Assembly (NCBI GenBank): GCA_013816585.1
Contig: JACDEE010000017.1
Location: forward strand, 1 to 55,666
DNA length: 55,666 bases
Source: Sphingosinicella sp.
GTDB lineage: Bacteria > Pseudomonadota > Alphaproteobacteria > Sphingomonadales > Sphingomonadaceae
Direction: 5' to 3'
The notes under the pieces are model-generated. The model made no database searches. It was given only the letters and a program-made list of their open reading frames with translations, and was not told the DNA's origin. Positions 39,080 to 55,642 of the stretch are shown piece after piece. A program made the translations under genes and the position numbers. Within the stretch, counting starts at the first letter, position 1; each line of letters starts with the position of its first letter.

Positions 39080-39119
39080 GCCCCTGTGGCGGAATTGGTA
39101 GACGCGCTCGACTCAAAAT
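39080..39119 (+). pseudogene. 5' half of a tRNA-Leu(CAA) gene, broken in the anticodon loop (probable attL)
   Basis: GCCCCTGTGGCGG starts an acceptor stem and D arm followed by GGAATTGGTAGACGCGCT and the anticodon loop CTCAAAA, which gives anticodon CAA. After TCAAAAT the sequence changes to TGCGTTTGGCC, which cannot complete the anticodon stem (CTCGA needs TCGAG), and no variable arm, T arm or acceptor end follows. A tyrosine recombinase gene begins 111 bases later. This is what the left junction of an element integrated in the anticodon loop should look like. Confidence 0.8.
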
Positions 39120-39184
39120 TGCGTTTGGCCTAAAAAAATAAGGCAAAAACTCCGTAAAACCAATGGTTTAGCTAAGGACGAGAC

Positions 39185-39230: not shown

Positions 39231-40517
39231 ATGCCGGTAGAAACCCATCTCCTGATGGACGGAGCGCTTCACGTCTATCGGCGTGAGAACAGCCGCTTCT
39301 GGCAGTGCGCAACCTACCTGGGCAGTCAGAACCATCGGCAGACAACCAAGGAGGTCAGCCTAGCTGCCGCCAAGGATTTCGCGCGCGACTGGTATATGGA
39401 GCGTTGCGTCGAGGATCGCCAACGCCGACGCGGTGGCGCTGCCTTGCTGGACGGTGCCGTCCAGCCACTTATCGCCGGACCCGGCGCGCCGACCGATGGT
39501 CGGCGTCGGCGAACGCCAACCGGCCCCAGCTTCGAGGATGCCGCTACTGCCTTCACCAATGAGTTCGAGGTTATCACCCTAGGCGAACGCAATGCCGGAT
39601 ATGTGAAGTCGAAGTCCGATCTCATCCGAGTTCACCTCCTGCCGTTCTTTGGCGATACGGCCCTTGAAGACATCACGGCTGGCAAGGTGCAGGAATACAG
39701 GTTTCATCGTCAGACATCCCGCGTCGACCCGAAAACCGGCAAGCCGAAGAAACCCGCCCGCGCGACTTTGCATGGCGAGATCGTCACGCTTCGTCAGGTG
39801 TTGAAGACCGCCAATCGCAAGGGCTGGATTGCTGCGATCCCGGATATGTCCGCGCCCTATAAGACATCTGGCAAGGTGGAGCATCGCGCGTGGTTCTCGC
39901 CCGAGGAATACAAAATGCTTTATGAAGCGACGCGCGAACGGGCGAAGAACCCGCCAAAGCCTCGGTGGCGCGAGGTCTGCGAGACCTTTCACGATTATGT
40001 TCTGTTCATGGGCAACACCGGGCTTCGTCCCGATGAGTCCGCGCGACTCGAGCTGCGGGACGTCAAGATCGTGAACGACGAGTCGACTGGTGAGCGCATT
40101 CTGGAGATCGAGGTGCGCGGCAAGCGCGGTGTTGGTTTCTGCAAGTCGATGCCCGGTGCGATCCTGCCCTTCGAGCGGGTCCGCAAGCGCAAACAGCTAA
40201 AGCCGACCGACCGCATTTTCGGGAAGTCGCCTCGCGAGTTGATGAACACCGTTCTCGACGAGCTCAACCTGAAGTTCGACCGCGATGGCCATGTCCGCAC
40301 CTGTTATAGCTTGCGGCATACTTATATCTGCCTTCGATTGCTCGAAGGCGCGGACATTTATCAAGTCGCCAAGAACTGCCGCACCAGTGTCGAGATGATC
40401 GAGAAGTTTTATGGGCGGCATTTGAAGAACAACATTGATGCTTCTGCCGTCAACGTTCGGAAAGTACGGCCTAAGCCGCCCGCCGTCCGGAAGAAGGCGC
40501 CGAAGCCAACATCATAG
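39231..40517 (+). CDS. Tyrosine recombinase / phage-type integrase
   Basis: The 428-residue protein should catalyse site-specific integration at the neighbouring tRNA-Leu. It has an N-terminal AP2/SAM-like arm-binding region, a core-binding domain (about residues 105-205, FTNEFEVITLGERNAGYVK...) and a C-terminal catalytic domain with Arg266 (TGLRPDES), SLRHTYI containing Arg362 and His363, and nucleophile Tyr394 in EKFYGRH. The usual His three residues before Arg362 is Tyr, a variant seen in this integrase branch. The basic C-terminal tail (RKVRPKPPAVRKKAPK) may bind DNA. The gene points away from the tRNA junction. Confidence 0.92.
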   Translation: MPVETHLLMDGALHVYRRENSRFWQCATYLGSQNHRQTTKEVSLAAAKDFARDWYMERCVEDRQRRRGGAALLDGAVQPLIAGPGAPTDGRRRRTPTGPSFEDAATAFTNEFEVITLGERNAGYVKSKSDLIRVHLLPFFGDTALEDITAGKVQEYRFHRQTSRVDPKTGKPKKPARATLHGEIVTLRQVLKTANRKGWIAAIPDMSAPYKTSGKVEHRAWFSPEEYKMLYEATRERAKNPPKPRWREVCETFHDYVLFMGNTGLRPDESARLELRDVKIVNDESTGERILEIEVRGKRGVGFCKSMPGAILPFERVRKRKQLKPTDRIFGKSPRELMNTVLDELNLKFDRDGHVRTCYSLRHTYICLRLLEGADIYQVAKNCRTSVEMIEKFYGRHLKNNIDASAVNVRKVRPKPPAVRKKAPKPTS

Positions 40518-40577: not shown

Positions 40578-40662
40578 GCCCCAGTGGTGGAATTGGTAGA
40601 CGCGCTGGATTCAAAATCCTGTTCCGAGAGGAGTGCCGGTTCGACTCCGGCCTGGGGCACCA
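40578..40662 (+). tRNA. tRNA-Leu(CAA), complete
   Basis: The 85 bases fold as a class II tRNA: acceptor GCCCCAG with CTGGGGC, D arm with GGAATTGGTAGA, anticodon loop TTCAAAA (anticodon CAA), a long variable arm (GTTCCGAGAGGAGT), T arm GCCGGTTCGACTCCGGC and an encoded CCA end. The anticodon stem CTGGA/TCCTG has one T-T mismatch. It differs from the broken copy at 39,080 in acceptor, D and anticodon stems, so it is a different gene, not its restored 3' part. It lies 60 bases behind the integrase gene. Confidence 0.93.
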
Positions 40663-40926: not shown

Positions 40927-42048
40927 ATGCGTTGGAATTGGCAGCTTCCTGACTGGCCCGATTTTCGCTTCGACGCGGAGCGCATTCGCTCGGCTGAGGA
41001 GCAATTCCTGAAAGGCTCCGGCGTCGTCATCGGGTCGCTGCACCACCTCGATGCCGATAAACGCGACGGCCTGACGATCGAACTAATTTCGCAGGAGGTC
41101 GTCGATAGCTCCGCCATTGAAGGCGAAATCCTCGACCGCGCCAGCGTCCAGTCGTCGCTTGCAAAGCATCTCGGCTTTGCCGCCGACCAGCGCCGCGCCA
41201 GCGCGGCGGAAGCCGGAGCCGCCGAACTCATGGCCGATGTTTATCATAACCATGCCTCGCCGCTCCACGATCGGACCCTGTTCGCGTGGCACGCGATGCT
41301 GATGAACGGTCGCCGCGACATTGCCAATGTGGGGCGCTACCGGACGCACGAAGACGCAATGCAGATTGTATCGGGCACCATTCACGAGCCGCGTGTACAC
41401 TTTGAGGCCCCGCCTTCGACAATCGTTCCGAGTGAAATGTCGCGCCTCATAGCGTGGTTTAATGACAGCGCACCGTCGTCGCAGAATGCGCTACCAGCGA
41501 TCACCCGTGCCGCAATCTCGCATTTGTGGTTCGAGAGCATCCACCCGTTCGAGGACGGCAACGGCCGCATCGGGCGCGCGATTGCCGAGAAGGCTTTGGC
41601 GCAATGCTTGGCAGCTCCGACGCTGACGGCGCTCGCTGAGACGATCCACCGACACCGCAAGGCCTATTACGCCGCACTTCAGCTCGCGAGCCAGAGCAAC
41701 GTCATTGACGCCTGGTTGGCATGGTTCGCCAATATCGTCATCGAGGCGCAGGCAAGGACAATCACCCGCATTCGCTTCCTGATCGACAAGACGCGCTTGC
41801 TCGATCGCTTGTGCGGGGCGATTAACGAGCGGCAGGAGAAGGCCCTGCTTCGCATATTTCAGGAGGGGCCGGATGGATTTGAGGGCGGGTTGAGCGCCGG
41901 GAACTACCGAACAATCACCGATGCCAGTCTGGCAACCGCGACACGCGATCTGAGCGATCTTGTCGAAAAAGGCGCCCTAATCCGCACTGGCGAGCGCCGC
42001 TATGCGCGCTACCGGCTTGCTGTCGATCAGGATTCTGATCCCAAATGA
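40927..42048 (+). CDS. Fic family protein with N-terminal DUF4172-like domain and inhibitory motif
   Basis: Fic enzymes transfer AMP (or other nucleotides or phosphate) to proteins. The 373-residue protein has the full active-site motif HPFEDGNGRIGR (His206), the upstream beta-hairpin region, and an N-terminal autoinhibitory S-x-x-x-E-G motif (Ser61, Glu65, Gly66) typical of class II Fic proteins. The N-terminus (MRWNWQLPDWPDFRFD) matches the DUF4172 type and the C-terminus (YRTITDASLATATRDLSDLVEKGALI) looks like a winged helix for DNA binding. No antitoxin gene is needed because inhibition is built in. It is divergent from nothing and lies 57 bases before the type IIG gene, so both may share a transcript. 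Confidence 0.9.
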   Translation: MRWNWQLPDWPDFRFDAERIRSAEEQFLKGSGVVIGSLHHLDADKRDGLTIELISQEVVDSSAIEGEILDRASVQSSLAKHLGFAADQRRASAAEAGAAELMADVYHNHASPLHDRTLFAWHAMLMNGRRDIANVGRYRTHEDAMQIVSGTIHEPRVHFEAPPSTIVPSEMSRLIAWFNDSAPSSQNALPAITRAAISHLWFESIHPFEDGNGRIGRAIAEKALAQCLAAPTLTALAETIHRHRKAYYAALQLASQSNVIDAWLAWFANIVIEAQARTITRIRFLIDKTRLLDRLCGAINERQEKALLRIFQEGPDGFEGGLSAGNYRTITDASLATATRDLSDLVEKGALIRTGERRYARYRLAVDQDSDPK

Positions 42049-42105: not shown

Positions 42106-45100
42106 GTGTCAGACAACGATAAAATCGAATCCTTCATCGCCGAATGGGCGCCGACCGGCGGCTCCGAACTCGCGAACACGCAAAGCTTCGTCAACGGCAT
42201 GTGCGCCCTGATCGGCGTCGATGCGCCCAAAGGCAGTCGCACCGACGACGTCCACAACGACTATGTGTTCGAGCGCCGCGTGTTCCAGAAAGAAGCCGAC
42301 GGCACCGAGAGCTTTGGCCGTATCGACGCCTATAAGCGCCATTGCTTCGTGCTAGAGGCCAAGCAGGGCAGCGATGCCGACCGCAAGGCCGCCGAAAAGG
42401 GCGAAGCTGACCTCGACATTTTCGGTCAGACCGCCGCCACCCGCTTCAAGCGCGGCACAGCAAAGCGCGGCACCCCGACCTGGTCGAAGGCAATGGTCGA
42501 GGCACGCGGGCAAGCTGAACGCTATGCCAAGGCGCTGCCCATAGATCATGGCTGGCCGCCGTTCCTGCTCGTCACCGATGTCGGCCACTGCATTGATGTC
42601 TATGCTGATTTCAGCGGCACCGGAAAGCAATACACACAGTTTCCCGACGCAGCCCGCTTCCGCATCGCGCTCGACGATTTGCGCGAAGAAGATGTCCGCA
42701 CCCGCCTTGCCACGATCTGGACCGACCCGCTCAGTCTTGATCCGTCAAAGGAAGCCGCCCGCGTCACCCGCGAGATTGCCGGGCATCTGGCCGAACTTTC
42801 CAAACGCCTCGAAAAGCGCGAGCAAAACCCCACCCGCGTCGCTGATTTCCTAATGCGCTGCCTGTTCACGATGTTTGCCGAGGATGTGAAGTTGATCCCG
42901 GAGGGCAGTTTCACCAACTTCCTCGCCCGGATGAAGACTCGCCCTGAGAATTTCGCGCCCAACCTGTCATCGCTGTGGCAGGCGATGGACAAAGGCGGAT
43001 TGGCCGGGGTGCTGGGCGACGCGGGCGAAACCGTGCTGCGCTTCAATGGCTATCTGTTCAAAGATATCACCGCGATTGCGCTCAATGCCGACGAGATCGG
43101 CCTGTTGATCGAAGCGGCATCGCACAAGTGGAACCATGTCGAACCCGCGATCTTCGGCACGCTGCTTGAACGCGCGCTAGATGGGAAGGAACGCGCCAAG
43201 CTCGGCGCGCATTACACCCCGCGCGCCTATGTCGAACGGTTGGTGATGCCGACGATCATGGAGCCGCTGCGCGCCGATTGGGCCGGGGTGCAGGCCGCGG
43301 CCGGTCATTTGATCGAGGCGGGCAAGGCCGATGAAGCGCACGACGTGATCGAGAAATTCCACGCACAGCTCGCGCAGACCAAGGTGCTTGATCCCGCGTG
43401 CGGCACCGGCAATTTCCTTTATGTCGCGCTCGCCCGGATGAAGGAGCTGGAGGGCGAAGTGATCGGGCGGCTTACCGAACTTGCGCCCGAAGGTGAAAAG
43501 CAGACGGTGGCTGAACTGAGCGGCCACACCATCACGCCCGAAAACTTCCTCGGCATCGAGATCAACCCGCGCGCCGCGGCGATTGCCCAGCTCGTGCTGT
43601 GGATCGGTTATCTGCAATGGCATTTCCGCGTGAATGGCGAAGGCAAGGTTCCGCCCGAACCGGTGCTGCGCGATGTGAAGACCATTAAAAACGGTGATGC
43701 GTTGATCGACTGCGAGAAAAAGATCTTAGAACGCGACGAGCAAGGTAACCCACTTACTCGCTGGGATGGTGAGACGAAGAAAAAACACGCCGTTACGGGG
43801 AAAGAGGTTCCTGACCAAGAGGCCCGCGTCGAGGTTTATCGGTATGTGAAGCCCCGGCCAGAAAAATGGCCCAAAGCGGATTTTATCGTCGGGAATCCGC
43901 CTTTTATCGGCAAAGGAAAGCGGGCGGTTGAGTATCTTGGGCGTCCATATCTGACCGCCCTCAAATCAGCTTCAAAAGTGAAGTTATCGGCCGACTATGT
44001 GATGCACTGGTGGGACCGAGCGGCAAATTTGGCGCGCACAAAGCAGTTGAGGCGTTTTGGCTTTATAACGTCCGCAACGATTACACAGCAATTCAACACG
44101 AAAGTCGTCCGTCAGCATGTCGAGGCTGTCCAAGGCGGACTTTCGATATCGTATGCGATAGCCGATCATCCGTGGGTTGATGAAAAGGGTTCTGCGGCAG
44201 TCAGGATAGCCATGACTGTCGGGGCTGCCGGAAAAGCCGACGGTCGACTGCTGCAAATCGTTGATGAAAGCGACGCTCCCGACAGCATTCAGTTTTCGGA
44301 GCAGACTGGCCCGATCAGCGCGACACTGAATATCAGCAATGATGTCAAATCAGCGAAGCCGTTGAAGGCAAACGATGGCATTTGCTCGCCGGGGATAAAA
44401 ACCTTTGGCGCGGGCTTCATCATTGATGGCGCGCTCGCTCAACGGTGGATTTCACAGCTCACACCGCAGGAGCTTGTCGTCCTCAAGCCCTATTTCGGGG
44501 GCAAAGATGTGACAGACCGATGGAAAGGGAAGTATGTAATTGATGTCGATCACTTGGAAGAGGACGCCCTCCGCAGCGATTACCCGACCTTCTACAGCCA
44601 CATTTTCAACCATGTGAAACCCGAGAGGGACGAGAACAACGAAGATAGCCGTAGGCTTCAGTGGTGGAAATTCGGTAGGCGCAATACGGAATTACGCGGG
44701 GCGCTTGCTGGGTGCGAGCGATTCATAGCCACCACAGAAACTGCAAAACACCGCTTTTTTGTTTTTCTCGAACCACCGCAATTCCCAGAAGGTGGATTGG
44801 TGGTGGTGGCAAGCTCCGACGCATTCTTCCTCGGTATTCTTTCGAGCAAAATTCATTTGGTTTGGATGCAGCGCGCGAAGGGCGCGCTGGAAACACGTCC
44901 CAGATACAACAAGCAGAGATGCTTTGATCCATTCCCGTTCCCGGCAGACGCCCCCGAACCACTCAAGGCCCACATCCGCGCAGAGGCAGAGGCGCTCGAT
45001 GGCCTGCGCAAGCAAGTGCTGGCCGCGCATGGCGATCTGACCCTGACCAGCCTCTATAATGTTCTGGAAGCACTGAAAGCAGGCCGAGCGCTGACCGACA

Positions 45101-45579
45101 AGGAACGCGACATCCATGATCGCGGGCTGGTGACGCTAATCCGCCAGCATCACGACGCCATAGATACTGCCGTTGCCGAAGCCTATGCTTGGCCCGCCGA
45201 ATTGAGCGATGAAGACATCCTCACCCGCTTGGTCGCGCTCAACAAGACCCGCGCCGCCGAAGAGGCAAAGGACGTGATCCATTGGCTCCGCCCCGAGTTC
45301 CAGGCACTGGGGGCAGTCGCTCCGCAAGTCAACGCCACGCTCAATCTCGGCGACGCCCCGGCATCCGCACCCGCAACCATCATCCCCTGGCCCAAGACGC
45401 TCGCCGAACAAGTCAGCGCCGTCGCCGCGATCCTCGCTGCCGCACCAATTCCCCAACACCCCCGCGACATCGCCCGCGCCTTCGACGGCAAACGCGCCGC
45501 CAGCGTCACACCAGTGCTCGATGCACTGACCGCCATCGGTCAAGCACGGAAGCTGGGGGATGGGCGCTATGCGGCGTGA
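42106..45579 (+). CDS. Type IIG restriction-modification enzyme (fused nuclease, methyltransferase, specificity domain)
   Basis: One 1157-residue chain appears to hold cutting, methylation and recognition. The N-terminus has a PD-(D/E)xK-like signature, Asp74 (GRIDAYKRH) and Glu84-Ala-Lys86 (VLEAKQG). Helical linkers follow. The N6-adenine methyltransferase core has motif I DPACGTGNF (Asp429) and motif IV NPPF (Asn597), an order typical of gamma-class enzymes. Residues about 640-950 should hold target recognition, and the C-terminal 200 residues are helical with a winged-helix-like end. The enzyme starts with GTG. The family resembles MmeI-like and YeeA-like proteins. It could be a solitary methyltransferase if the nuclease is inactive. 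The middle of the gene is poorer in GC than its ends. Confidence 0.85.
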   Translation: MSDNDKIESFIAEWAPTGGSELANTQSFVNGMCALIGVDAPKGSRTDDVHNDYVFERRVFQKEADGTESFGRIDAYKRHCFVLEAKQGSDADRKAAEKGEADLDIFGQTAATRFKRGTAKRGTPTWSKAMVEARGQAERYAKALPIDHGWPPFLLVTDVGHCIDVYADFSGTGKQYTQFPDAARFRIALDDLREEDVRTRLATIWTDPLSLDPSKEAARVTREIAGHLAELSKRLEKREQNPTRVADFLMRCLFTMFAEDVKLIPEGSFTNFLARMKTRPENFAPNLSSLWQAMDKGGLAGVLGDAGETVLRFNGYLFKDITAIALNADEIGLLIEAASHKWNHVEPAIFGTLLERALDGKERAKLGAHYTPRAYVERLVMPTIMEPLRADWAGVQAAAGHLIEAGKADEAHDVIEKFHAQLAQTKVLDPACGTGNFLYVALARMKELEGEVIGRLTELAPEGEKQTVAELSGHTITPENFLGIEINPRAAAIAQLVLWIGYLQWHFRVNGEGKVPPEPVLRDVKTIKNGDALIDCEKKILERDEQGNPLTRWDGETKKKHAVTGKEVPDQEARVEVYRYVKPRPEKWPKADFIVGNPPFIGKGKRAVEYLGRPYLTALKSASKVKLSADYVMHWWDRAANLARTKQLRRFGFITSATITQQFNTKVVRQHVEAVQGGLSISYAIADHPWVDEKGSAAVRIAMTVGAAGKADGRLLQIVDESDAPDSIQFSEQTGPISATLNISNDVKSAKPLKANDGICSPGIKTFGAGFIIDGALAQRWISQLTPQELVVLKPYFGGKDVTDRWKGKYVIDVDHLEEDALRSDYPTFYSHIFNHVKPERDENNEDSRRLQWWKFGRRNTELRGALAGCERFIATTETAKHRFFVFLEPPQFPEGGLVVVASSDAFFLGILSSKIHLVWMQRAKGALETRPRYNKQRCFDPFPFPADAPEPLKAHIRAEAEALDGLRKQVLAAHGDLTLTSLYNVLEALKAGRALTDKERDIHDRGLVTLIRQHHDAIDTAVAEAYAWPAELSDEDILTRLVALNKTRAAEEAKDVIHWLRPEFQALGAVAPQVNATLNLGDAPASAPATIIPWPKTLAEQVSAVAAILAAAPIPQHPRDIARAFDGKRAASVTPVLDALTAIGQARKLGDGRYAA

Positions 45580-47477
45580 AACCCAGGCAGCGCTGACACG
45601 ATTTCTTCGTCATCAAACCAGTTGTTCGCGACGACGTGTGCCCTCACGGCAGAGGGGTCCAAGGAGTAAGCGACAAGAGCAAGGCTCGATTTGGCTCGGC
45701 TGCAAGTCACGTAAAACAGCCGCCGCGTGCGATCGAGTGATGTTTCTCGGCCTTCTTGTTCGTTTTTCTGGTCGGCGGCACTCCGCGCTTTGGCTCCAAG
45801 CAGCTTGTCATAGCCGAAGAGAAAACCTCTAGCGTCCCCGTCATCCATCAAGACCATAACGCGATCAAACTCTAATCCCTTTACGCCTTGATGCGTGTCG
45901 AACGATGCCTCTCTCGCGACGTAAGCAGCGTAAGGTCTGATTACCGAGAAGGAGCAGTTCAGGAAGCTGAGAAGCGCTTCGAGATTTTTGCCGACAGGGT
46001 CTTCCTCCTCATCTTGCAGAGATTGGGCGGGCTCCGCTTCTTTGGCGGCCAATGCCGCCTTCAGGCTGTCGGGTATGACAAAGAGGTTGCTGCTGGCGAC
46101 GTTAGCGAGGATCGCCGCACAAGTCGGCACGCCCTCCGCCCATAATGCCATCAAGCCATCGATAGCGCTTTGAGCCGAGCGGAGTTGGTCTATCGGCTTC
46201 TCGGAGCCTTTCAGGCTTTCCTTGCTCAAGAGCGGCGAGTTTTCCCGGACAAGTCTGGTTGCGGCGAATTTGTCGTCCCGCTGCTGAGCCTGGACAAGGG
46301 GAAGGACGTTGTGAGTAAAAAACCGGGTCGCGGCAAAGCTGCCATCCAAAAAGCTCGTCCGGAACTCATCGACCGATGCAAGTGCTTCAAATAAGTCTTG
46401 GAAGCCCATGCGCTTGGCTGCCATGTGGTGTTCAAGCGTCAGAATTTTACACTTGCTGCGGTCGGTCCAGTCGCCGTCGCCCGTGAGCGCGGCCATGTAA
46501 TCCCTGACACGATCTTCGATCGCTGGCTTGTCTTCGACATCGACCGGAAACACGAACAGCCTCGCCCAGCCTTCGGCGGAATCGCCACGCGGTTCCTGCT
46601 TGTGATTGTCGGCGCCATCCCGAATCTGATTGATCAGGCGCACGATCCGCTGCGGACTGCGGTGGTTTAGTTTCTTTTCGGGGGTCGCCCAATCTTCGGG
46701 AATTATGGTCTCGATTCGCTCTTTCCCGTCCGGGTAAATGCGCTGCATCGTGTCGCCGATAAGCCCCAGCGCGAACCGGCCCGCGTGCGCCTGCTGCACG
46801 GCAAGAACAGCGTCTATCAGCGCCTTGTTTGTGTCCTGGCTCTCATCGATCAGCACAAAAGGATATTTCTCAACGAACATGCGCTGCATCAGCGGCTTCG
46901 TCAGCAGGAAGGTCGAGAATATCTTGATGACTTCGCTATGATTGAGGGCATTGCGCTCCCGATTGTCGCTGTTCGGATTATAGGTGAAGGTCTTGAACTC
47001 ATCTAACCGCGACAGGCGGCGCTGCTTGGATTCGATCTGAGCAAGCCGCGAAGCAGATGCTTTCGTGCCCACGCGGCCTTTCTGCTCTTCCTCGGTGATC
47101 TCAGCGATTTCCTGTTGAAGATTGGTTCGAAGCCATTCACGAATGTCTATGTTGAAGCTCTGAATCTGCAACCACGCGAAGCTATGAATGGTTTTTATCA
47201 CGAAGAGCGGATCGAACTCTGTGCGGCGCGTGATCTCGTCGCACGCCGCGTTGGTATAGGTGATCACGGCGACCTGTCGCCCGCGCAGACGGAGCGTATC
47301 CCGGTAGCGGAAGGCAATATGCTTTAGCGCGTTCACTAGCGACCGGGTTTTCCCCGATCCCGCTCCCGCGAAAAGAAAGAAGCTTTTCGGACACTCCAGA
47401 TTCAAAAGCTCGGCGAGCTCCGTTTCGACGTGATCGTCGAGCGTGATGTTTGATCCCGTCTCTGTACCTCCCGTCAC
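45567..47477 (-). CDS. gajB: UvrD-like superfamily 1 helicase, GajB-like
   Basis: The 636-residue protein has Walker A FAGAGSGKT (Lys43), motif Ia ITYTNAACDEI, motif II DESQD (Asp211, Glu212), motif III LIGDTMQRIYPDG and motif VI RRLFYVTCSRAKSSL. In Gabija defence, GajB senses DNA ends and pairs with the GajA nuclease. Its ATG overlaps the end of the OLD-family gene by four bases (ATGA), a strong sign of joint function. Prototype GajB has about 500 residues, so this one is longer, mainly in the middle (about 95-200 and 330-520). Its 3' end overlaps the type IIG gene tail to tail by 13 bases. A role in repair cannot be excluded. Confidence 0.82.
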   Translation of the reverse strand: MTGGTETGSNITLDDHVETELAELLNLECPKSFFLFAGAGSGKTRSLVNALKHIAFRYRDTLRLRGRQVAVITYTNAACDEITRRTEFDPLFVIKTIHSFAWLQIQSFNIDIREWLRTNLQQEIAEITEEEQKGRVGTKASASRLAQIESKQRRLSRLDEFKTFTYNPNSDNRERNALNHSEVIKIFSTFLLTKPLMQRMFVEKYPFVLIDESQDTNKALIDAVLAVQQAHAGRFALGLIGDTMQRIYPDGKERIETIIPEDWATPEKKLNHRSPQRIVRLINQIRDGADNHKQEPRGDSAEGWARLFVFPVDVEDKPAIEDRVRDYMAALTGDGDWTDRSKCKILTLEHHMAAKRMGFQDLFEALASVDEFRTSFLDGSFAATRFFTHNVLPLVQAQQRDDKFAATRLVRENSPLLSKESLKGSEKPIDQLRSAQSAIDGLMALWAEGVPTCAAILANVASSNLFVIPDSLKAALAAKEAEPAQSLQDEEEDPVGKNLEALLSFLNCSFSVIRPYAAYVAREASFDTHQGVKGLEFDRVMVLMDDGDARGFLFGYDKLLGAKARSAADQKNEQEGRETSLDRTRRLFYVTCSRAKSSLALVAYSLDPSAVRAHVVANNWFDDEEIVSALPGFHAA

Positions 47478-49810
47478 GCGTCGACCTCTACTGCACCTGC
47501 GTCGGGGAGGGCGAGCTGTTCGGCGCTGCCGATTTGGGCAAGGCCAAGTTCTAACTGCTTGTGCTCAAGCTTCTCCGCCAGCCAAAGCAACCCTTCACGG
47601 ATGTAGGTCGGTGGCTTGAGCGCGATTGGGTCCGCGATCTCGAGAAGATCCAAGGCAAATTCGGCTTTGCTACCCTTATCGAGTGCCGCCTTGAGCGCGG
47701 TTGCAAGAGCATTGAAGTTCGCACTATTCGCGATCTCGGTACGAAATTTGGCGATCAGGCCGGTTCCCGGCAACGTGGCGAAAAGCGCCAAGTTCTCGGT
47801 TACGACCGCATCCTCCAGGGTATAGGCCAGCGCCTCGACGGTCGCGCCTTTGAATTCGACTTGAATTGGGCACTGGTATGCAACGCGGATGGCAAAGTTC
47901 TCCGCTGCGTAAGACTTGATCTTGTCGGCTTCGGCCTTATCGAGCAGCTCGTCCAGAGCCAGTATGGCGGGCCACCAAGTTTTCAGGGTGTGATTGCGAG
48001 TGGTGTAGCCGGCGCCCCTCATTGGCACCGCGCTGCTGCCGGCGGCGTCACAAGAATCGATGTCCGTGACAATGAGCGTCACAAGGCCGATCTTTTCGAT
48101 CAGTTTGCGCAACTTGTGGGCGTGACTGCCGCCGATCTCTAGCCAAGTGATGTAGCTTTCGGAGAGATTCGCAAACTCCGGATGAGTATTCACGAAGTTG
48201 GGCACCAAAATACGTTCGGCGGGCCCTTCGATCAGGACGGCCGCGTCCGCGAAGAATAGATCGCAATGTGTGACTTTCAGGTAGCGTGTGACGAAGCGTT
48301 TGGTGTCGGGATCGGCGCCGAAGGCGTTTTCGAGGTTCACCACGCAGGCCGTGGGGATAGAGTTCGCCCCGCCCGGCAAACGGCGGAAGTAGCGCAGCGA
48401 GTCAAAATCGCATTCTTGAGCGATATGGCTGGAATGCGTGCTGACAACCATCTGCGTGACGAAATTCGTGCCGCCCCCCAGCTCATCATGATTCCTGAGA
48501 ATTTTGTGCGCTTGTCGGATAAATACCTGCTGCACCTGCGTATGCAGATGCACTTCGGGTTCTTCAATTAGGACAAGATGCAACGGCGGAATAATCGAGT
48601 CGTCGGCAGCCTTGTGCTTGGCTTTGCCCACGCGCATCCAACTATCGCGGAATGCCATGAGGCGAAACACCATTGAGATCAGATTTTGATAGCCCAGCCC
48701 GTTTGAATCCTCGGGCAGAAACAGATCGACGGTGTTTTCGCCATCTCCCATCGGCACGACAAACTGCACGGCCGTATCGTGATTGAGGCCTTCGACAGGA
48801 CGCAGGCGCGTCGAAATATTCAATTTCGGATCGGTGACACCCGGATAGCCAAGTTTGTGCATTTCCTTGAGAGGGCTTTTGAACCCATCACTCAGCCGTA
48901 GATTGAAAGCCTTTTGCGCGTCCTCGATTGCCTTGAGGGCCAGTAAGTCTTGGGCGTCAGGATTTTCGTATGGGTCGAGGTGCCGCGTATAATATTGTCT
49001 GAGTTGGACAGACAACTTACGCGATCCAGCTGGGCTCGTCGTCGCATTTTCATCTGGCCCGGCTTCCTCGCCCGCATGGCCGAAACCTCGCTGTGCGCTG
49101 ATTTCGTCGATGCGTATTAGACCCCGAAAAGGGTCGCCATCAATCGGTTCGCTACCATTCAAGAGTTGGGGCTGCGCGACCCCGTGTTCGGGATCAACGC
49201 AGGCGGCTGGATCGAGGACATAGGACTTGATCGTGAAAAAGCTGGTCAGACGCCGGCTCAGAAATTCGACAAGGTTTTGCGGCCAGATCGAGACCTGGAA
49301 TGACTCGGCGGCTTCACCCTGTTGCTGTGCGAGTGCCGCACCAGCGGCTTGCAGCGTCAACGTCTCGGCGCGCGCGTTAACATAATCCTTCTGCAACTCC
49401 GCAGCGTCTTTGGGCTCAAGGCGCATTCGAACGCCAAGCCGCCCGCCATCCCAATCCAGCGTCGGCAGTATGTTCTGAACGTAATGAACTTCATCATCGG
49501 CGACGTGCAGCCACACGTCCAGAAACGGGAGGACAGCATCCCAATCCGACGCCGGCATCTCCTGTTGCGCAGCTTGGGCCGTTTCCCAGGCCTGCCCCAT
49601 CGTGTTGATGGCGGGCCAATGCGAGAGCGTAAAGTCGTTGAAACAGAATTTAGATCGCTCACGATCGACCAAAAAATAACGCAGCGCCGTGATCGCGGAG
49701 GTCTTTCCACTGTTATTTGCACCAACGAACACCGTCTTTGCAGGGGATAGCCCAATCCGCGTTGAAATCAGTTTTCGAAAGTTCGCGATTTCAACAAATT
49801 CAATGCGCAT
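47474..49810 (-). CDS. gajA: OLD-family ATPase with TOPRIM nuclease domain, GajA-like
   Basis: The 778-residue protein has an ABC-type ATPase domain with Walker A VGANNSGKTSA (residues 30-38), Walker B VLIEEPEVHLH (Glu416, Glu417) and the switch STHSSHIAQ, then a C-terminal TOPRIM domain with Glu528 (VLIEGPAER) and the acidic pair Asp583/Asp585 (LIVTDIDSC). This is the class 2 OLD layout, which together with an adjacent UvrD-like gene defines Gabija. Prototype GajA is near 580 residues; here there is extra sequence between Walker A and Walker B (about 90-300) and a longer C-terminus. GGAGAGG precedes the ATG. It may need nucleotide depletion to cut, as in other Gabija systems. Confidence 0.83.
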   Translation of the reverse strand: MRIEFVEIANFRKLISTRIGLSPAKTVFVGANNSGKTSAITALRYFLVDRERSKFCFNDFTLSHWPAINTMGQAWETAQAAQQEMPASDWDAVLPFLDVWLHVADDEVHYVQNILPTLDWDGGRLGVRMRLEPKDAAELQKDYVNARAETLTLQAAGAALAQQQGEAAESFQVSIWPQNLVEFLSRRLTSFFTIKSYVLDPAACVDPEHGVAQPQLLNGSEPIDGDPFRGLIRIDEISAQRGFGHAGEEAGPDENATTSPAGSRKLSVQLRQYYTRHLDPYENPDAQDLLALKAIEDAQKAFNLRLSDGFKSPLKEMHKLGYPGVTDPKLNISTRLRPVEGLNHDTAVQFVVPMGDGENTVDLFLPEDSNGLGYQNLISMVFRLMAFRDSWMRVGKAKHKAADDSIIPPLHLVLIEEPEVHLHTQVQQVFIRQAHKILRNHDELGGGTNFVTQMVVSTHSSHIAQECDFDSLRYFRRLPGGANSIPTACVVNLENAFGADPDTKRFVTRYLKVTHCDLFFADAAVLIEGPAERILVPNFVNTHPEFANLSESYITWLEIGGSHAHKLRKLIEKIGLVTLIVTDIDSCDAAGSSAVPMRGAGYTTRNHTLKTWWPAILALDELLDKAEADKIKSYAAENFAIRVAYQCPIQVEFKGATVEALAYTLEDAVVTENLALFATLPGTGLIAKFRTEIANSANFNALATALKAALDKGSKAEFALDLLEIADPIALKPPTYIREGLLWLAEKLEHKQLELGLAQIGSAEQLALPDAGAVEVDA

Positions 49811-49933: not shown

Positions 49934-50977
49934 CTAAAGCCCCGTCCCGGCATCCGTATTCTGATCATAATCCATCGGCAGCATCCGTGTGTCTCCGAGC
50001 CGCGGGTAGTGCTCGTTGAGCAAATTCATGAATCCGCCCCAGCTCTTGCTTACCTTCATGAGCGCGATCGTTGCGCCCAGGTGCTCCTTGAGCTTGGGAT
50101 AGCCGATGTTGGATGTCAGGCTTTGGAAGAACTTGGCCGTCGGGCGGCCTCCCTCATTGCGGGGTGTTACCCGCTGAAGTTCGGCGAGGACCCCCGGTGC
50201 CAGGCGCTTATAGATGACGTCGTTTGTGAGGATCCCGAAATACCGTGGGCGCTGCACCGACGACGATGAGAATTCCAGCCCACGCAAACGGAACATCTGC
50301 TCGTAGAATTCGGCCGGGAACGTTTGAATCCAGGCTTGCAGTTCCTTCGCGATGAACGCTTCGAGGATCTTGGACAGCGCGTCCTTCTCGCGGTCGCGTT
50401 GATAGCCGGTCGCTTCGTCGACCAGCGCGACGATACCGACACGGGCGAAGCCTCGGATAAGAATCTCGCACTTGGCTGCGATACCCAATTGCTGCTTTTG
50501 CAACGCGCCTGCTTCACGCGCTTTTAGAACCGCTTCGCAAAGATCGTGAAGCAATGTCGCTTCAAAGCCGTTAGCTCGCCCGCCTTCCGGCGTGATGAAG
50601 GAAATCGGATTGGCAAACCGTTCAGCAATTTCGTTCGAGATGAACGGATTTACTGATTTCCTCGATACGAAGAGCTCAAGCCGATTCATCCCGGCGATCA
50701 TCGACCCCCCCCGTGCCATGCCGAGTGCGCCGGCGAAACCACCTTGGCTGAGCACTCGGGTGCCATCTTCCAACACAAAGCAGGGAAGTTCGGCGTCACC
50801 AATTTTCAGGGGGTGATTTGACGAGCCGTGGGTGGCCTTTAGCATTTTCTTGCGGTCCCACCGGGCCTTGGCCGCTTTGCTCGCGATTTCACGGCGCTCG
50901 GCTGGGTTGAGCAGCTTCATCCTGGCGTGGCCGCCCTTTGCGCGCCCTACCGGCAATCCGGGATTGGTCTCGTTCAT
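49934..50977 (-). CDS. P63C-domain protein
   Basis: From the ATG at 50977 (MNETNPGLPVGRAKGGHARM) the protein has 347 residues. The N-terminal part is basic and helical (LNPAERREIASKAAKARWDRKK), as in several plasmid and phage proteins. The C-terminal P63C domain covers about 190-320, with ALVDEATGYQRDREKDALSK, FYEQMFRLRGLE, RPRYFGILTNDVIYKRLAPG and YPKLKEHLGATIALM. P63C proteins occur in phages and mobile elements, sometimes linked to antirepressor or regulator functions; their biochemistry is unclear. It lies 123 bases before gajA on the same strand and may be co-transcribed with gajAB. Confidence 0.8.
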   Translation of the reverse strand: MNETNPGLPVGRAKGGHARMKLLNPAERREIASKAAKARWDRKKMLKATHGSSNHPLKIGDAELPCFVLEDGTRVLSQGGFAGALGMARGGSMIAGMNRLELFVSRKSVNPFISNEIAERFANPISFITPEGGRANGFEATLLHDLCEAVLKAREAGALQKQQLGIAAKCEILIRGFARVGIVALVDEATGYQRDREKDALSKILEAFIAKELQAWIQTFPAEFYEQMFRLRGLEFSSSSVQRPRYFGILTNDVIYKRLAPGVLAELQRVTPRNEGGRPTAKFFQSLTSNIGYPKLKEHLGATIALMKVSKSWGGFMNLLNEHYPRLGDTRMLPMDYDQNTDAGTGL

Positions 50978-51007
50978 GATTCGCATATGCAAGCTATTGA
51001 CCACTAT

Positions 51008-51035
51008 TGCTAGCATAAAATAAAACATGCTAACA
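51008..51035 (-). promoter_or_regulatory. Inverted repeat in the promoter region of the P63C gene
   Basis: TGCTAGCAT (51008-51016) and ATGCTAACA (51027-51035) are inverted copies with one mismatch and a 10-base AT-only-like spacer (AAAATAAAAC). They lie 31-58 bases before the P63C start in the most AT-rich stretch of the area. The layout of 9-10-9 fits a dimeric repressor site over a promoter. The regulator is unknown; the P63C protein itself is a candidate. Confidence 0.55.
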
Positions 51036-51055
51036 TTTCTGGCTTTTGCTCGCAC

Positions 51056-51707: not shown

Positions 51708-51896
51708 ATGACCGATTTGCTGTTGAACTATCGTGCTTGCGGCGCGGAGTGCCGCGACGATTATCTGCGCGGTGTCGCCAACGAGAATGGCTTGCCGTTG
51801 GAGTGCGTTCAGAAAATCGCGGAGCGGCTCGGCGAGCGTGAGGATTTCGGGGCGCTGATCCTGATTTGCGAAGGACGGCGGGGGCGTGTGCAATGA
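51708..51896 (+). CDS. Small hypothetical protein of the element backbone
   Basis: The ATG at 51708 follows GGGAAGGAAGG at about seven bases and starts a 62-residue protein (MTDLLLNYRACGAECRDDYL...). It has two cysteines near the N-terminus and helical propensity throughout; I do not recognise a family. The start of the next gene overlaps its stop codon as ATGA, which supports its being real and co-translated with the DUF3768 gene. Confidence 0.65.
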   Translation: MTDLLLNYRACGAECRDDYLRGVANENGLPLECVQKIAERLGEREDFGALILICEGRRGRVQ

Positions 51897-52294
51897 GCGT
51901 CGCCCTTGCCACAGCGCGCGAGCAGACCGCGCGCATCGCCCGTTTGAACGACCTTGCCCGCAGCGCGAGGGGGGTTGCTTGCACCGCCGTTGCGACAGCC
52001 GGGTTCCGGTCGCTGCCCGAGGCCGACCAGTCTTGCGTCCGTGAATTGATCGAGACGTTCGATGCCTTCGCCGAGGACAACGACCCGCACGGCGAGCGGG
52101 ATTTCGGGACGATCTACCAGCTTGGTGATGGTCACTGGACGACCGAGCGCCCGCGATTGCGCGAGGATGAGCGCGAACGGGTGTTCTGGAAACTCGATTA
52201 TTACGACCGTGCGATGCGGTTCGCCAGCGAGGACGCCGCCGACCCCCGCGTCACGCGGCGCGTCCTGACCATCATGCTTTCCGATGAATATTGA
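51893..52294 (+). CDS. DUF3768 domain protein
   Basis: The 133-residue protein carries the DUF3768 pattern: a helical N-terminus with IARLNDLARSARG, then LIETFDAFAEDNDPHGERDFGTI, FWKLDYYDRAMRFAS and the ending DPRVTRRVLTIMLSDEY. This family is found on plasmids and integrative elements of Alphaproteobacteria; no activity is known. It overlaps the upstream small gene by four bases and precedes another small gene. Confidence 0.85.
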   Translation: MSVALATAREQTARIARLNDLARSARGVACTAVATAGFRSLPEADQSCVRELIETFDAFAEDNDPHGERDFGTIYQLGDGHWTTERPRLREDERERVFWKLDYYDRAMRFASEDAADPRVTRRVLTIMLSDEY

Positions 52295-52308
52295 GCGGAG
52301 GCGAGGCC

Positions 52309-52500
52309 ATGAAGCGCAAAGACCTCCCCGCCGTCACGCCGCCCGCCCCCGATCAGGTCATGATTCCGGGCATCGCGCCCGTCAGCATGGGCGAACGGCT
52401 TGGCTGGCTTGCCGCGCAGCCGATGCAGCCCCGCCGTGAGCAGCGCCCGCTCGACATCGGGTTTTGGAACCCGATGCGCGACCAGATCGAGATGTTCTGA
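52309..52500 (+). CDS. Small hypothetical protein between DUF3768 and parB
   Basis: The ATG at 52309 is preceded by GCGGAGGCGAGG, so the reading frame of 63 residues (MKRKDLPAVTPPAPDQVMIP...) is probably translated. The sequence is proline-rich in the first half and ends DIGFWNPMRDQIEMF. I do not recognise a family. It lies 14 bases after DUF3768 and 36 before parB, in one gene string. Confidence 0.6.
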   Translation: MKRKDLPAVTPPAPDQVMIPGIAPVSMGERLGWLAAQPMQPRREQRPLDIGFWNPMRDQIEMF

Positions 52501-52536
52501 CTTGCCAGTTTTCAACCATTTTCAGGAGTGTTTCCA

Positions 52537-54396
52537 ATGACCCTACAGACCGTAAAACTTTCGCAGCTTCGCCTGTCGCCGCTTAACGTGCGGCGCGTGA
52601 AGCCCAAGGCCATCGACCAGCTTGCCGCCGATATGCTGGCGCACGGCCAGTTGCAGAACCTTGTCGTTTACGCCGAGGGCAATCGCTTCGAGGTTGCCGC
52701 CGGAGGGCGGCGCTACCGCGCCTTCAAGCAGCTTGAGAAGGCCAGGGCGATTCCGTCCAGCCATCCGGTCAGTGTTGACGTGCGCGACAAGGCCGAGGCG
52801 GTCGAACTGTCTTTGGCCGAGAATGTGAGCCGCGAGGACATGCACGTTGCCGATGCAGTGATCGCTTATGGCGATCTCCACGCCGAGGGTAAGTCGCCCG
52901 AGGATATTGCGGCACGGTTTGGCGTGGCATTGTCTTACGTCAGGAAGGTGTTGCGCCTGTCGGCATTGCAGCCTGACGCGCTCGCCTGTCTCGCGCGCGA
53001 TCAGATCGGCATGGAGGCGGCACAGGCACTGACCCTGACCGACGATCACGACCGCCAGCTTGAGGCGTTGAAGCGGTTTGGCAACAGCGCGCACCAAATC
53101 CGGCGAATGCTGACCGAAGAGAAGATCGGCACCGACCATCCGCTGTTTTTGTTTGTCGGGCACGATGCCTATGCCGCAGCGGGCGGCACGATCACCGCCG
53201 ACCTGTTTGCGGAAGGCGGCGACGGCTATGCAGACGACCCCGCATTGATCGAGACGCTGGCCACCACCAAGATGGCCGAGGTCGAAGTGGGCTATCGCGG
53301 CGACGGCTGGAGCGATGTTCGGGCATCGCTTGAACGACCCGACGACTATTACAACCTTGTCACTGTCCACGCCGAAGGGAAGCGCGAGCCCACCGACGCC
53401 GAAGTGGTCGAGCGCGCGCGTATTCAGGACGCGGCGGACGTGCGCCTTGCCGAACTGGGCAAGGGCAACCAGTGGGGCGACAGGGTGTTCAACGGATTGG
53501 AGCGCGAAGCCCGCATCCTTGAAACCCGCCTGTGCGTGTTCGCCGACGCGCAGAAGGCAGACAGTGCGATGGTGCTGTTCGTCGGCAATAGCGGCGAGGT
53601 CGAGGCCAAGGCTATCCGCACCAAGCGGATTGCCAAAGGCGGCAGCGGCGATGCACCGGCCATCAAGCCCGATTATTCGGGCGCGATGATCGAGACACTA
53701 TCGAAGATCAAGACGCTCGCCGTGCAGGAAGCGGTTGCTACCAATCCCGCGCTTGCGCTCGACATCTTGCTCGATTGTCTTGTCGGGCAGGGCATCCACC
53801 GCGAACCGTCCTATTACTCGCCGCTGTCGCTTCGGCTCGAAGGGTTCAATGCCGCCGTTCCCGACGACATGATGACCCTTGGCGACATTGCGTCGGTCGA
53901 TGAGATCGGCGGCAGCGACTTCGCCGCCATGCCCGAGGTCAACCGGTTCGCGGCCATTCAGGCAATGGACGCCGACGCCAAGGGGCGGTTGCTGGCGTTG
54001 CTTGTTGCGCGCCAGATCAACGGCGGCGAGCCGTCCGGCTCGCGCCGCGACCGTCGCCACCAGCGGTTCGACCAGATCGCGTTCGCCAGTGGCGTCGATA
54101 TGGTCGGCAAGTGGCAAGCGCCGGTCGCTTTTTACGACCGGCTCAAAAAGCCTATTATTGGGAAGATCATGACCGAGGTGCTCGGCAAGGCCGCCGCCGA
54201 AAATTGCGCGAAGATGAAGAAGGGCGAACTTGCCGCCGCCGCCGCCGAGCGGATGGCAGGGAAGGGATGGCTGCCGCCCGCGCTTGTGATCGCGGAGCCG
54301 CCCGTCGAGGTCGCGCAGGAGCGAGCCGCGTTCGACGACGATGAAGGCAGTGAGGACGGCGAGGCCGTCGAGTTCGAGGAGGAAGAAGCGGCTTGA
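52537..54396 (+). CDS. ParB/RepB/Spo0J family protein, plasmid/ICE type
   Basis: The ATG at 52537 with CAGGAGTG upstream starts a 619-residue protein. The N-terminal ParB nucleotide-binding domain has LRLSPLNVRRVKPKAIDQLA, AAGGRRYRAFKQL and LAENVSREDMHVADAV; a KorB-like helix-turn-helix follows (SPEDIAARFGVALSYVRKVLRL). The remaining 450 residues are element-specific and end in an acidic tail (DDDEGSEDGEAVEFEEEEAA). Chromosomal ParB has about 300 residues, so this is the long plasmid/ICE form. No parA lies in the window, which suggests a role other than classic segregation, such as regulation or DNA protection. Confidence 0.88.
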   Translation: MTLQTVKLSQLRLSPLNVRRVKPKAIDQLAADMLAHGQLQNLVVYAEGNRFEVAAGGRRYRAFKQLEKARAIPSSHPVSVDVRDKAEAVELSLAENVSREDMHVADAVIAYGDLHAEGKSPEDIAARFGVALSYVRKVLRLSALQPDALACLARDQIGMEAAQALTLTDDHDRQLEALKRFGNSAHQIRRMLTEEKIGTDHPLFLFVGHDAYAAAGGTITADLFAEGGDGYADDPALIETLATTKMAEVEVGYRGDGWSDVRASLERPDDYYNLVTVHAEGKREPTDAEVVERARIQDAADVRLAELGKGNQWGDRVFNGLEREARILETRLCVFADAQKADSAMVLFVGNSGEVEAKAIRTKRIAKGGSGDAPAIKPDYSGAMIETLSKIKTLAVQEAVATNPALALDILLDCLVGQGIHREPSYYSPLSLRLEGFNAAVPDDMMTLGDIASVDEIGGSDFAAMPEVNRFAAIQAMDADAKGRLLALLVARQINGGEPSGSRRDRRHQRFDQIAFASGVDMVGKWQAPVAFYDRLKKPIIGKIMTEVLGKAAAENCAKMKKGELAAAAAERMAGKGWLPPALVIAEPPVEVAQERAAFDDDEGSEDGEAVEFEEEEAA

Positions 54397-54401
54397 ATCG
54401 A

Positions 54402-54432
54402 GAGGGCGGGCCGAGCGGCCCGCCCTCATTTT
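54402..54432 (+). terminator. Terminator of the parB gene string
   Basis: GAGGGCGGGCC (54402-54412) pairs with GGCCCGCCCTC (54417-54427) around GAGC and is followed by ATTTTC. The 11-base GC stem six bases after the parB stop codon fits an intrinsic terminator. Confidence 0.8.
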
Positions 54433-54490
54433 CTTGTTCCCGATTCCCCTAATTAAGTGTTCGCGCGGCCCGTCTCTGCTGGACGGGCAA

Positions 54491-54550
54491 AGGCCGGACG
54501 TTCCGACCGGCCTCAAATCGGCACGGCAGCTTATGGCTGCCGTGCCGATT
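54491..54550. repeat. Two tandem perfect hairpins between parB and the DUF1289 gene
   Basis: AGGCCGG (54491-54497) pairs with CCGGCCT (54507-54513). Directly after it, positions 54516-54530 and 54536-54550 are perfect 15-base inverted copies (AATCGGCACGGCAGC) with loop TTATG. Neither has a T run. Together with the parB terminator they make three stems in 150 bases. Confidence 0.75.
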
Positions 54551-54597
54551 GCGCGCGAAGGATAGCGAGGGAGCCGCTTCGCGTTTAGGGGAATGGC

Positions 54598-54795
54598 GTG
54601 ATCGAGCCTCCTGAATCGCCCTGTGTTGAGGTCTGCGCGCTCGATTCGCGCGCAGTGCTTTGCACCGGCTGCGGTCGCACCATCGCCGAGATCGGCGAAT
54701 GGGGCGGCGCGACTGCCGAACGGCAGTGCGCGATACTTGCCTTGTTGCCGAAGCGGATGGCGCAGCTCGCCGCCGGAAAGCCGGTCATGCTGTGA
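54598..54795 (+). CDS. DUF1289 domain protein
   Basis: The 65-residue protein starting at a GTG has the complete DUF1289 pattern: SPCVEVCALD, then CTGCGRTIAEIGEW, giving four cysteines that likely bind a metal. Chromosomal members are common in Proteobacteria as small proteins near unrelated genes; their function is unknown. Here it sits among plasmid-type genes behind the hairpin pair. Confidence 0.88.
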   Translation: MIEPPESPCVEVCALDSRAVLCTGCGRTIAEIGEWGGATAERQCAILALLPKRMAQLAAGKPVML

Positions 54796-55306
54796 TCGTC
54801 ATTCCGCCGCCCTTGTCGGGATCATGCCTAACCGAAAGCAATCGCCGCTCTTGATGATGCCGCTGCCGTGGTTGTGGCGGATCGCCGGGATCGGTTGAAG
54901 GTCGCGGTGCTGCGCGCAGTGCGTGTTGGTGGGCGGCGAGACTATTCAGGTGAACGCGGCCTGGCGGCACCGTAGGTGGCGGTTGAGCTGGCACCGGCTG
55001 TGACATCGCGGACCTTGGTGTCGATACGGCCAGAACCAATCGCGCGAAAGATCGGCAGCTTCTCTTGTCCGGGGTTGCAGAACGATTTCCTTGTTTGCCG
55101 GTTTCGTGGCCGCGCGCGTCGCCTCATACGATCAAGCAAAAAACCGGACGCCTCCCAATGCCCGCCAAGGCGGGCGGGGCGTCCTACGGTTTCCACCCCA
55201 TTGCATGGGGCAGAGCCTCCGTTTTTTGGCTGGATCGCGGCTCCTCCGCGGCCCCCTTGAAGACCGTCAGGAAATCACCTGCGCAACCCAAGACGGAGTA
55301 AGACCC
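54796..55306. other. Structured region upstream of ssb, no gene supported
   Basis: Open frames on both strands here lack domain signatures and ribosome binding sites, so I call no gene. The right half is rich in inverted repeats: AAACCG (55141-55146) with CGGTTT (55187-55192), GACGCC (55147-55152) with GGCGTC (55178-55183), inside them GCCCGCC (55160-55166) with GGCGGGC (55169-55175); then CCCCA-TTGCA-TGGGG near 55,197-55,210. It is probably a long leader or a structured element controlling ssb. Confidence 0.5.
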
Positions 55307-55642
55307 ATGCAGAACATCGCAGAATTTCGGATCATCGGCCGCATCGGCAAGGTCGAGGTTAAAGAGAAAGTCACTTATCTTTCGGTGGCCTCGAACTACA
55401 ACCGCAAGGACGGCGACGACTGGAAGACCGATGCCCACTGGAACAGTGTCACGCTGTTCGACAAGCTCGCCAAGCGTCTGACCGCCAGCAAGGGCGACCT
55501 CGTGCACATCACCGGTCGCGTCCGCCAGAACCAATATGAGGCAGGCGGCACCACCCACTACGACGTCGATCTGATCGCCGACGGCATCGCCATCCTCGCC
55601 AGGAAGGACGGCGGCCCTGCCGATGACGAAAAGCACGACTGA
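55307..55642 (+). CDS. ssb: Single-stranded DNA-binding protein, mobile-element type
   Basis: The ATG at 55307 with ACGGAGTAAG upstream starts a 111-residue OB-fold protein (MQNIAEFRIIGRIGKVEVKE, then AHWNSVTLFDKLAKRLTASKGDLVHITGRVRQNQYE). It should bind single-stranded DNA during replication or conjugal transfer of the element. The C-terminus is PADDEKHD and lacks the DDIPF-like tip that chromosomal SSB uses to recruit repair and replication partners. It is shorter than chromosomal SSB (about 170 residues). The frame is open upstream but without support. Confidence 0.92.
   Translation: MQNIAEFRIIGRIGKVEVKEKVTYLSVASNYNRKDGDDWKTDAHWNSVTLFDKLAKRLTASKGDLVHITGRVRQNQYEAGGTTHYDVDLIADGIAILARKDGGPADDEKHD

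Follow-up and report, generated by a model that had tools for sequence, protein, structure and literature searches.

A probable long-branch Gabija gene pair on a tRNA-Leu-associated genomic island of Sphingosinicella sp.

The subject of this analysis is a 55,666-nucleotide (nt) stretch of Sphingosinicella sp. DNA, hereafter the window (assembly GCA_013816585.1, contig JACDEE010000017.1, positions 1–55,666), and a pair of adjacent minus-strand genes within it, gajA and gajB. The pair is assigned, at a probability of roughly 0.9, to the Gabija (class 2 OLD nuclease plus UvrD helicase) anti-phage systems, where it would belong to a branch with long proteins, and it is carried on a mobile genomic island. 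The analysis shows how the genes are laid out, that their motifs are intact, that both proteins belong to the family, that the two genes are inherited together, and that they are set in an island.

Both Proteins Match Gabija Models Nearly End to End

A preliminary description of the window reported an OLD-type ATPase followed, with a 4-base overlap, by a UvrD-like helicase, the products having 778 and 636 residues. Both open reading frames (ORFs) were confirmed on the minus strand (Table 1). The same description recognized the Gabija layout and suggested comparison with hidden Markov models of Gabija, and that comparison supported it. The PADLOC GajA model PDLC00093 matched with 926 bits (residues 1–754 of the protein; model positions 1–728 of 736), and the GajB model PDLC00111 matched with 833 bits (residues 11–628; model positions 6–623 of 625). 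Pfam AAA_15 (148 bits) and OLD-like_TOPRIM (56 bits) were above their cut-offs for GajA, as were UvrD helicase domains for GajB (UvrD-helicase, 69 bits). In phmmer searches, GajA matched solved GajA proteins at E values of about 1e-10. The top 10 Foldseek rows obtained with the GajA model comprised nine Gabija GajA chains and T. scotoductus OLD. By Pfam, PADLOC, and fold search, GajA is thus an ABC ATPase with an OLD-type TOPRIM domain, and a UvrD/PcrA/Rep-like helicase lies directly downstream of its gene. The NCBIfam model of the Retron-Eco8 effector OLD protein gave 40 bits, against a cut-off of 250.

A pattern scan of contigs representing one genome per species returned at least 501 relatives, of which the best 80 were kept. 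A helicase lies directly downstream of gajA in 77 of these; the other three have 0–259 nt to the contig end. The 4-nt overlap between the gajA stop and the helicase start recurs in 43 of the 77 pairs. Together with the profile scores, this pairing rules out chance, and the 77 paired loci and the correspondence of GajA and GajB clades (see below) identify the two genes as one inherited unit.

Catalytic Residues Are Conserved

Conservation was assessed in two alignments, one of the window GajA with 43 relatives (A2) and one of the window GajB with 43 relatives (A3). In GajA, Lys36, the EEPE sequence at 416–419, His459, Glu528, Glu532, Asp583, Asp585, Glu666, and Lys715 were invariant in all 44 sequences, and Thr664 was kept in 98%. 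In GajB, the Walker A lysine (Lys43) and the DESQD box (211–215) were invariant in 44 of 44. The earlier statement that the TOPRIM residues are intact is therefore borne out for E528, E532, D583, D585, E666, and K715; the Lys43 named in the preliminary description is the Walker A lysine of GajB, that of GajA being Lys36. For comparison with the Bacillus cereus type, a 591-residue GajA from a Paenibacillus urinalis plasmid (L108), 70% identical to a 56-residue stretch of B. cereus GajA (BcGajA), served as a stand-in. Window GajA residues align to K35, H320, E379, E383, D432, and D434 of L108; in the portions of PMC10822852 consulted, the last five follow the BcGajA numbering and K35 is absent from it. 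The same portions place the third metal-site motif at D511/D513 in BcGajA and at T506/E508 in the B. pseudomallei OLD protein. The window GajA has a complete TOPRIM active site with a third motif of the form T-x-E, and the ATPase motifs of GajA and the helicase motifs of GajB are intact.

Table 1. Features of the gajA–gajB locus and its neighborhood (window coordinates)
Feature	Position	Strand	Basis
gajA, OLD-type ABC ATPase + TOPRIM endonuclease, 778 residues	47474-49810	-	ORF, ATG start; Pfam, PADLOC, Foldseek
gajB, UvrD/Rep-like SF1A helicase, 636 residues	45567-47477	-	ORF, GTG start; Pfam, PADLOC
gajA stop / gajB start overlap, 4 nt	47474-47477	-	ORF positions
GajA Walker A, residues 30-37, Lys36	49700-49723	-	sequence; Lys36 invariant in A2
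GajA Walker B, EEPE 416-419	48554-48565	-	invariant in A2
GajA TOPRIM Glu528 + Glu532	48215-48229	-	aligned to E379/E383 of B. cereus type
GajA TOPRIM DxD, Asp583/Asp585	48056-48064	-	aligned to D432/D434 of B. cereus type
GajA third metal-site motif, Thr664-x-Glu666	47813-47821	-	alignment and eye; like T506/E508 of B. pseudomallei OLD
GajA Lys715, probable equivalent of BcGajA K541	47666-47668	-	invariant in A2; aligned to L108 K552
GajA extra segment, residues 68-95	49526-49609	-	alignment to L108/L222; 39% mean majority conservation
GajA extra segment, residues 134-177	49280-49411	-	long predicted helix (136-163 in model); 34% mean majority conservation
GajA extra segment, residues 193-222	49145-49234	-	alignment to L108/L222; 46% mean majority conservation
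GajB Walker A, residues 38-44, Lys43	47346-47366	-	invariant in A3 except Ser41 (at least 95%)
GajB DESQD box, residues 211-215	46833-46847	-	invariant in A3
GajB extra segment, residues 470-505 (2B region)	45963-46070	-	30% mean majority conservation; model confidence (pLDDT) <50 at 484-492, partly unstructured
GajB segment between motifs V and VI, residues 553-582	45732-45821	-	61% mean majority conservation in branch; present in UvrD too
Integrase-like gene	39231-40517	+	weak, below Pfam cut-offs; between tRNA-Leu 5' fragment and complete tRNA-Leu
Fic-family protein (DUF4172 + Fic)	40927-42048	+	Pfam; between tRNA-Leu and restriction enzyme
MmeI-like type IIL/IIG restriction-methyltransferase, single-chain	42106-45579	+	PADLOC REase_MTase_IIG, 1422 bits

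The Long Proteins Form a Separate Branch

The preliminary description raised the possibility of a separate branch of Gabija, and trees of both proteins recovered one, with the long GajA proteins in a single clade and their helicases in a matching clade. In a tree of 67 OLD/GajA proteins, 24 rows, the window GajA among them, formed one clade that does not include the B. cereus-like type (L108 and L222). The clade had 100/100 support, was recovered in all of 200 bootstrap trees, and stands on a stem of 1.34 changes per column. A quick tree of 105 GajA/OLD rows recovered this clade as well, there comprising 38 rows, among them the long-branch row L175 (193 bits), and supported at 100% in the Shimodaira–Hasegawa-like approximate likelihood ratio test (SH-aLRT). 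Thirty-eight of the 105 rows were dropped for the smaller, more careful tree: the outer group lost every one of its 12 single-gene rows, the inner single-gene clade lost 10 of its 15 rows, and near relatives were thinned from the long clade; L145, L175, L188, and L218 were removed as well. In a quick tree of 71 GajB rows, which carried long-branch warnings for L155, L175, L218, and L224, the helicases of the branch formed a 34-row clade with 99% SH-aLRT support. The GajA partners of 32 of these fall in the long clade; for the other two, L146 and L152, GajA is cut by the contig end and matches the GajA profile with 883 and 596 bits.

The single-gene OLD rows kept in the careful tree (L163, L177, L179, L185, and L207) nest inside the UvrD-paired group, so that pairing with a helicase defines no single clade in that tree; the remaining single-gene rows were removed beforehand, most as long branches or near-duplicates. 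Since the genes of this nested OLD clade have no detected helicase neighbor, one or more gains or losses of the helicase partner may have occurred.

The long clade of the 105-row tree includes many Pseudomonadota rows and reaches Planctomycetota (L035), Paenibacillus (L042), Flavobacterium (L074), Alicyclobacillus (L085), and Legionella (L093). In the order to which the window genome belongs, 22 of 296 genomes, the window's included, had a match at E ≤1e-20; in some of the 22 the proteins are not of the long form. Matches were found in 332 of 72,556 plasmid records and in five of 50,697 phage records. Four of the plasmid relatives, all rhizobial, are 76–82% identical, and in the three of them that were examined the pair stands in unrelated surroundings. 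In four of the 80 best related loci (L080, L082, L094, and L101) gajA is in pieces and the helicase frame is present.

Long Proteins Are Common, and Most of the Added GajA Sequence Is Poorly Conserved

The preliminary description called the two proteins unusually large, a characterization that did not hold up. The size looked unusual because the comparison was made with the short B. cereus reference. Long forms already have PADLOC models, the two best-matching GajA models having 736 and 752 positions and the two best GajB models 625 and 632. PMC8565338, in the portions consulted, names the loci in the lists of Doron et al. as the source of PADLOC's Doron-system models; the models matched here are those of the 2023 version. 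Long forms are also common in a phylum sample of 299 genomes, 72 of which, the window's included, had an OLD TOPRIM match. All 80 OLD-TOPRIM places outside the window were fetched, and an OLD ORF was identified by profile in 78 (all but L219 and L220). A helicase lies directly downstream in 48 of the 78, and 42 of these pairs are complete; among the 30 OLD ORFs lacking a helicase, L145, L188, and L215 stop at or near a contig edge. In the complete pairs, the OLD proteins have 392–916 residues (median 639; at least 700 in 13 of 42) and the helicases 343–717 (median 620; at least 600 in 23 of 42), although both profiles used were built mostly from long-branch sequences and may therefore overlook helicases that are short or distant, inflating the proportion of long ones. 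Ten of the 48 helicase-paired OLD loci score at least 380 bits with the long-branch GajA profile, a threshold of our choosing. The reading of the size as a rarity was rejected on the lengths in this sample.

Where the extra sequence lies agrees with the preliminary description, which placed it between the Walker motifs of the ATPase and inside the helicase domains. About two thirds of the additional GajA sequence, 127 of 187 net extra residues relative to L108, is between the Walker motifs, whose span is 381 residues in the window and 254 in L108 (approximate values from a low-identity alignment). The extra GajB residues fall partly in region 1B, partly in region 2B, and partly between motifs V and VI. 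The GajA core stretch 96–133 reached 66% mean majority conservation and mostly has counterparts in short GajA; within it, residues 114–121 are a small added piece with invariant Pro116 and Trp120. A conserved added face formed by 96–133 was considered and rejected, as alignment to short GajA showed only 114–121 to be added. The poor conservation of most added GajA sequence (Table 1) speaks against a tightly conserved new function in the greater part of it. Since the longer motif V–VI stretch occurs in ordinary UvrD as well, B. cereus GajB (BcGajB) may itself be the shortened or reduced form.

An Island in a Host tRNA-Leu Gene Carries the Pair

Sequence comparisons place gajA and gajB on an island inserted in the tRNA-Leu gene of the host. 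A 49-nt repeat is shared by the 5′ half of a tRNA-Leu(CAA) at 39071–39119 and the start of a complete tRNA-Leu at 40578–40662. The 5′ fragment (39071–39125 in the window) lies to the left of the integrase-like gene and is 94–96% identical to the intact tRNA-Leu of three genomes of the same genus, compared with 84–88% for the complete copy. The missing 3′ half was located on another contig, C48 (C48:13314–13367; L247 3314–3367), and is 98% identical to that of a relative. These identities show that the host tRNA-Leu(CAA) is split in the anticodon region. The island appears to carry, beside the integrase-like gene, a complete, divergent tRNA-Leu(CAA) that could replace the split host gene. The middle of the island lies on neither the window contig nor C48. 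The GC content is 55–57% at 44–50 kb, against about 61% elsewhere.

Several neighboring genes complete the description of the island. The MmeI-like gene is convergent with gajB and overlaps it by 13 nt, so that two defense systems stand end to end. A P63C-domain gene (49934–51055, minus strand) lies directly upstream of gajA on the same strand. Beyond the tRNA 3′ half on C48, at what is apparently the far end of the island, are a HipA-like gene and a helix-turn-helix partner (L247 3504–5059, minus strand). Genes for a DUF3768 protein, a ParB-like protein, and SSB (51866–55642, plus strand) suggest that the island is of plasmid-like or conjugative origin. No third partner of the operon was found: in the flanks of L006–L225 (without L008 and L112–L141; mostly at most 4 kb), the P63C-domain, MmeI-like, and integrase genes had no tblastn match at 1e-5, the only matches being one weak Fic (L210) and two ParB (L029 and L038). 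A promoter scan gave three candidates where 2.0 were expected and a terminator scan nine where 7.4 were expected; neither was used.

Predicted Structures, Proposed Mechanism, and Alternative Explanations

Structures were predicted for both proteins as single chains. The GajB model had a mean predicted local distance difference test score (pLDDT) of 89.5 and a predicted template modeling score (pTM) of 0.84 and resembles UvrD, Rep, and PcrA, with template modeling scores (TM-scores) below 0.5 over the whole chain. The GajA model had a pLDDT of 78.6 and a pTM of 0.74, and its dimerization region (241–370) is mostly below 60. Several of these structural results weigh against assignment to Gabija. 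The branch is distant from BcGajA: the best GajA Foldseek rows have 12–15% identity, and the first 10 rows have 13–15% identity, query TM-scores of 0.34–0.40, a weak overlap over the whole chain, and root-mean-square deviations of 9–22 Å. There is no GajB chain in the first 50 of 916 Foldseek rows for GajB, and in the Protein Data Bank (PDB) the GajB profile favors PcrA (4e-17) over BcGajB (3e-11). These results speak against a specially close tie between the window GajB and BcGajB and would be consistent with BcGajB as a reduced form.

Assembly, trigger, DNA cleavage, and phage defense are inferred for the window pair from its homologs. In the mechanism that is most likely by homology, GajA would oligomerize through its ATPase/dimerization insert and dock GajB; in the portions of PMC10781630 and PMC10822852 consulted, B. 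cereus GajA–GajB is described as a 4:4 ring. ATP binding would, again by homology, hold the TOPRIM nuclease in check. The trigger could be phage DNA, in the form of linear ends unprocessed by a host end-processing enzyme, and/or falling nucleotide levels, after which the TOPRIM site would cut DNA by two-metal catalysis, with GajB helicase/ATPase activity assisting. PMC12407980, as consulted in part, proposes that Pseudomonas aeruginosa Gabija acts on linear DNA unprocessed by RecBCD and links end-processing enzymes to the Gabija choice between self and non-self. The genome of the window contains an AddA-type subunit scoring above its cut-off.

The long clade also admits the reading that the window pair belongs to a separate two-gene OLD–helicase system that resembles Gabija in layout only and has an assembly, trigger, or mode of cutting of its own (such as a form other than the 4:4 ring, or the non-specific cutting reported for B. 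pseudomallei OLD). The GajA clade of its own (100/100, on its 1.34-change stem) and the matching helicase clade speak for such a system, as do the longer ATPase insert, the fuller helicase, and a third metal motif of the T-x-E form that B. pseudomallei OLD has, in contrast to D-x-D (in the text of PMC10822852 that was consulted). However, existing Gabija models cover both proteins nearly end to end, other UvrD-paired branches likewise stand on long stems, most added GajA segments are poorly conserved, and the review PMC10568477, in the part consulted, counts even the B. pseudomallei enzyme among the class 2 Gabija systems. We consider a separate system unlikely. The related proposal that the long clade is a functionally distinct subtype within Gabija, with a partner-specific ATPase insert, a fuller helicase, a different assembly or trigger, and escape from inhibitors of the short form, is similarly doubtful, and the weak conservation of the added GajA segments lowered our estimate for it slightly.

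Readings that deny the pair a defense role fare worse. Both folds occur in repair enzymes, and weak RecF/SMC and Rep/PcrA model matches were obtained, as might be seen for a housekeeping DNA-repair ATPase–helicase pair; but repair equivalog models scored only 20–50 bits against cut-offs of 172–1168 (Rep, 50 against 951; PcrA, 49 against 911; UvrD, 36 against 1144; RecF, 20 against 172), and the patchy spread in the order and the plasmid and island locations leave a repair pair extremely improbable. A decayed, non-functional copy on a remnant island would have parallels in the four related loci with fragmented gajA, but both window ORFs are full length with conserved catalytic residues, making decay very unlikely. 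The Gabija assignment is retained. In our search for literature on GajA/GajB clades, subtypes, and diversity, no experiment on the long branch was found in the material consulted, and the P. aeruginosa PA14 pair of PMC12407980, seen in part, might belong to it. PMC12796447 distinguishes OLD clades U1–U11, which may include the long clade.

Comparison with Known Systems

The Gabija system of B. cereus VD045 (GajA, 578 residues; GajB, 493–494 residues; PDB 8SM3, 8TJY, and 8U7I) has the same gene order as the window pair and shares the ABC ATPase with TOPRIM, the SF1A helicase, the catalytic residues (compared via L108), and the best fold match. Unlike the VD045 protein, to which it is 12–15% identical, the window GajA has an interval between the two Walker motifs that is longer by about 127 residues and T-x-E in place of D-x-D, and the window helicase has longer 1B/2B and motif V–VI stretches than its VD045 counterpart. 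The B. cereus proteins behind the structural papers PMC10781630 and PMC10822852 (both consulted in part) fall below the majority of phylum-sample pairs in length (median 639 residues for the OLD protein and 620 for the helicase), and a long-branch pair could show whether the 4:4 ring, ATP control, and Gad1 sensitivity hold across Gabija.

The class 2 OLD nucleases BpOLD and XccOLD (PDB 6NK8 and 6NJV) entered the PDB matches through their TOPRIM domains only. Their ligands E400/E404/D455/D457/T506/E508 and K562 have likely counterparts in E528/E532/D583/D585/T664/E666 and K715 of the window GajA, as deduced through BcGajA from partial texts. Pseudomonas phage PfAC02b (OR790969) carries a pair annotated as Gabija whose proteins (GajA, 647 residues; GajB, 660 residues) fall in the same clades as those of the window; unlike the window pair, it has a filamentous phage as its carrier, its GajA is 28.5% identical over half the protein, and it forms a long branch in the GajB tree.

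The closest correspondence is with the PADLOC models PDLC00093 and PDLC00095 for GajA and PDLC00111 and PDLC00143 for GajB, which match over nearly their full lengths and whose sizes (736/752 and 625/632) fit those of the window proteins. The window GajA is slightly longer than the models (778 against 736–752), its tail from residue 755 being unmatched by PDLC00093. The window pair represents a kind of system already known, namely Gabija of the long branch. Taken alone, the locus is largely ordinary, the long form being common and already represented in PADLOC.

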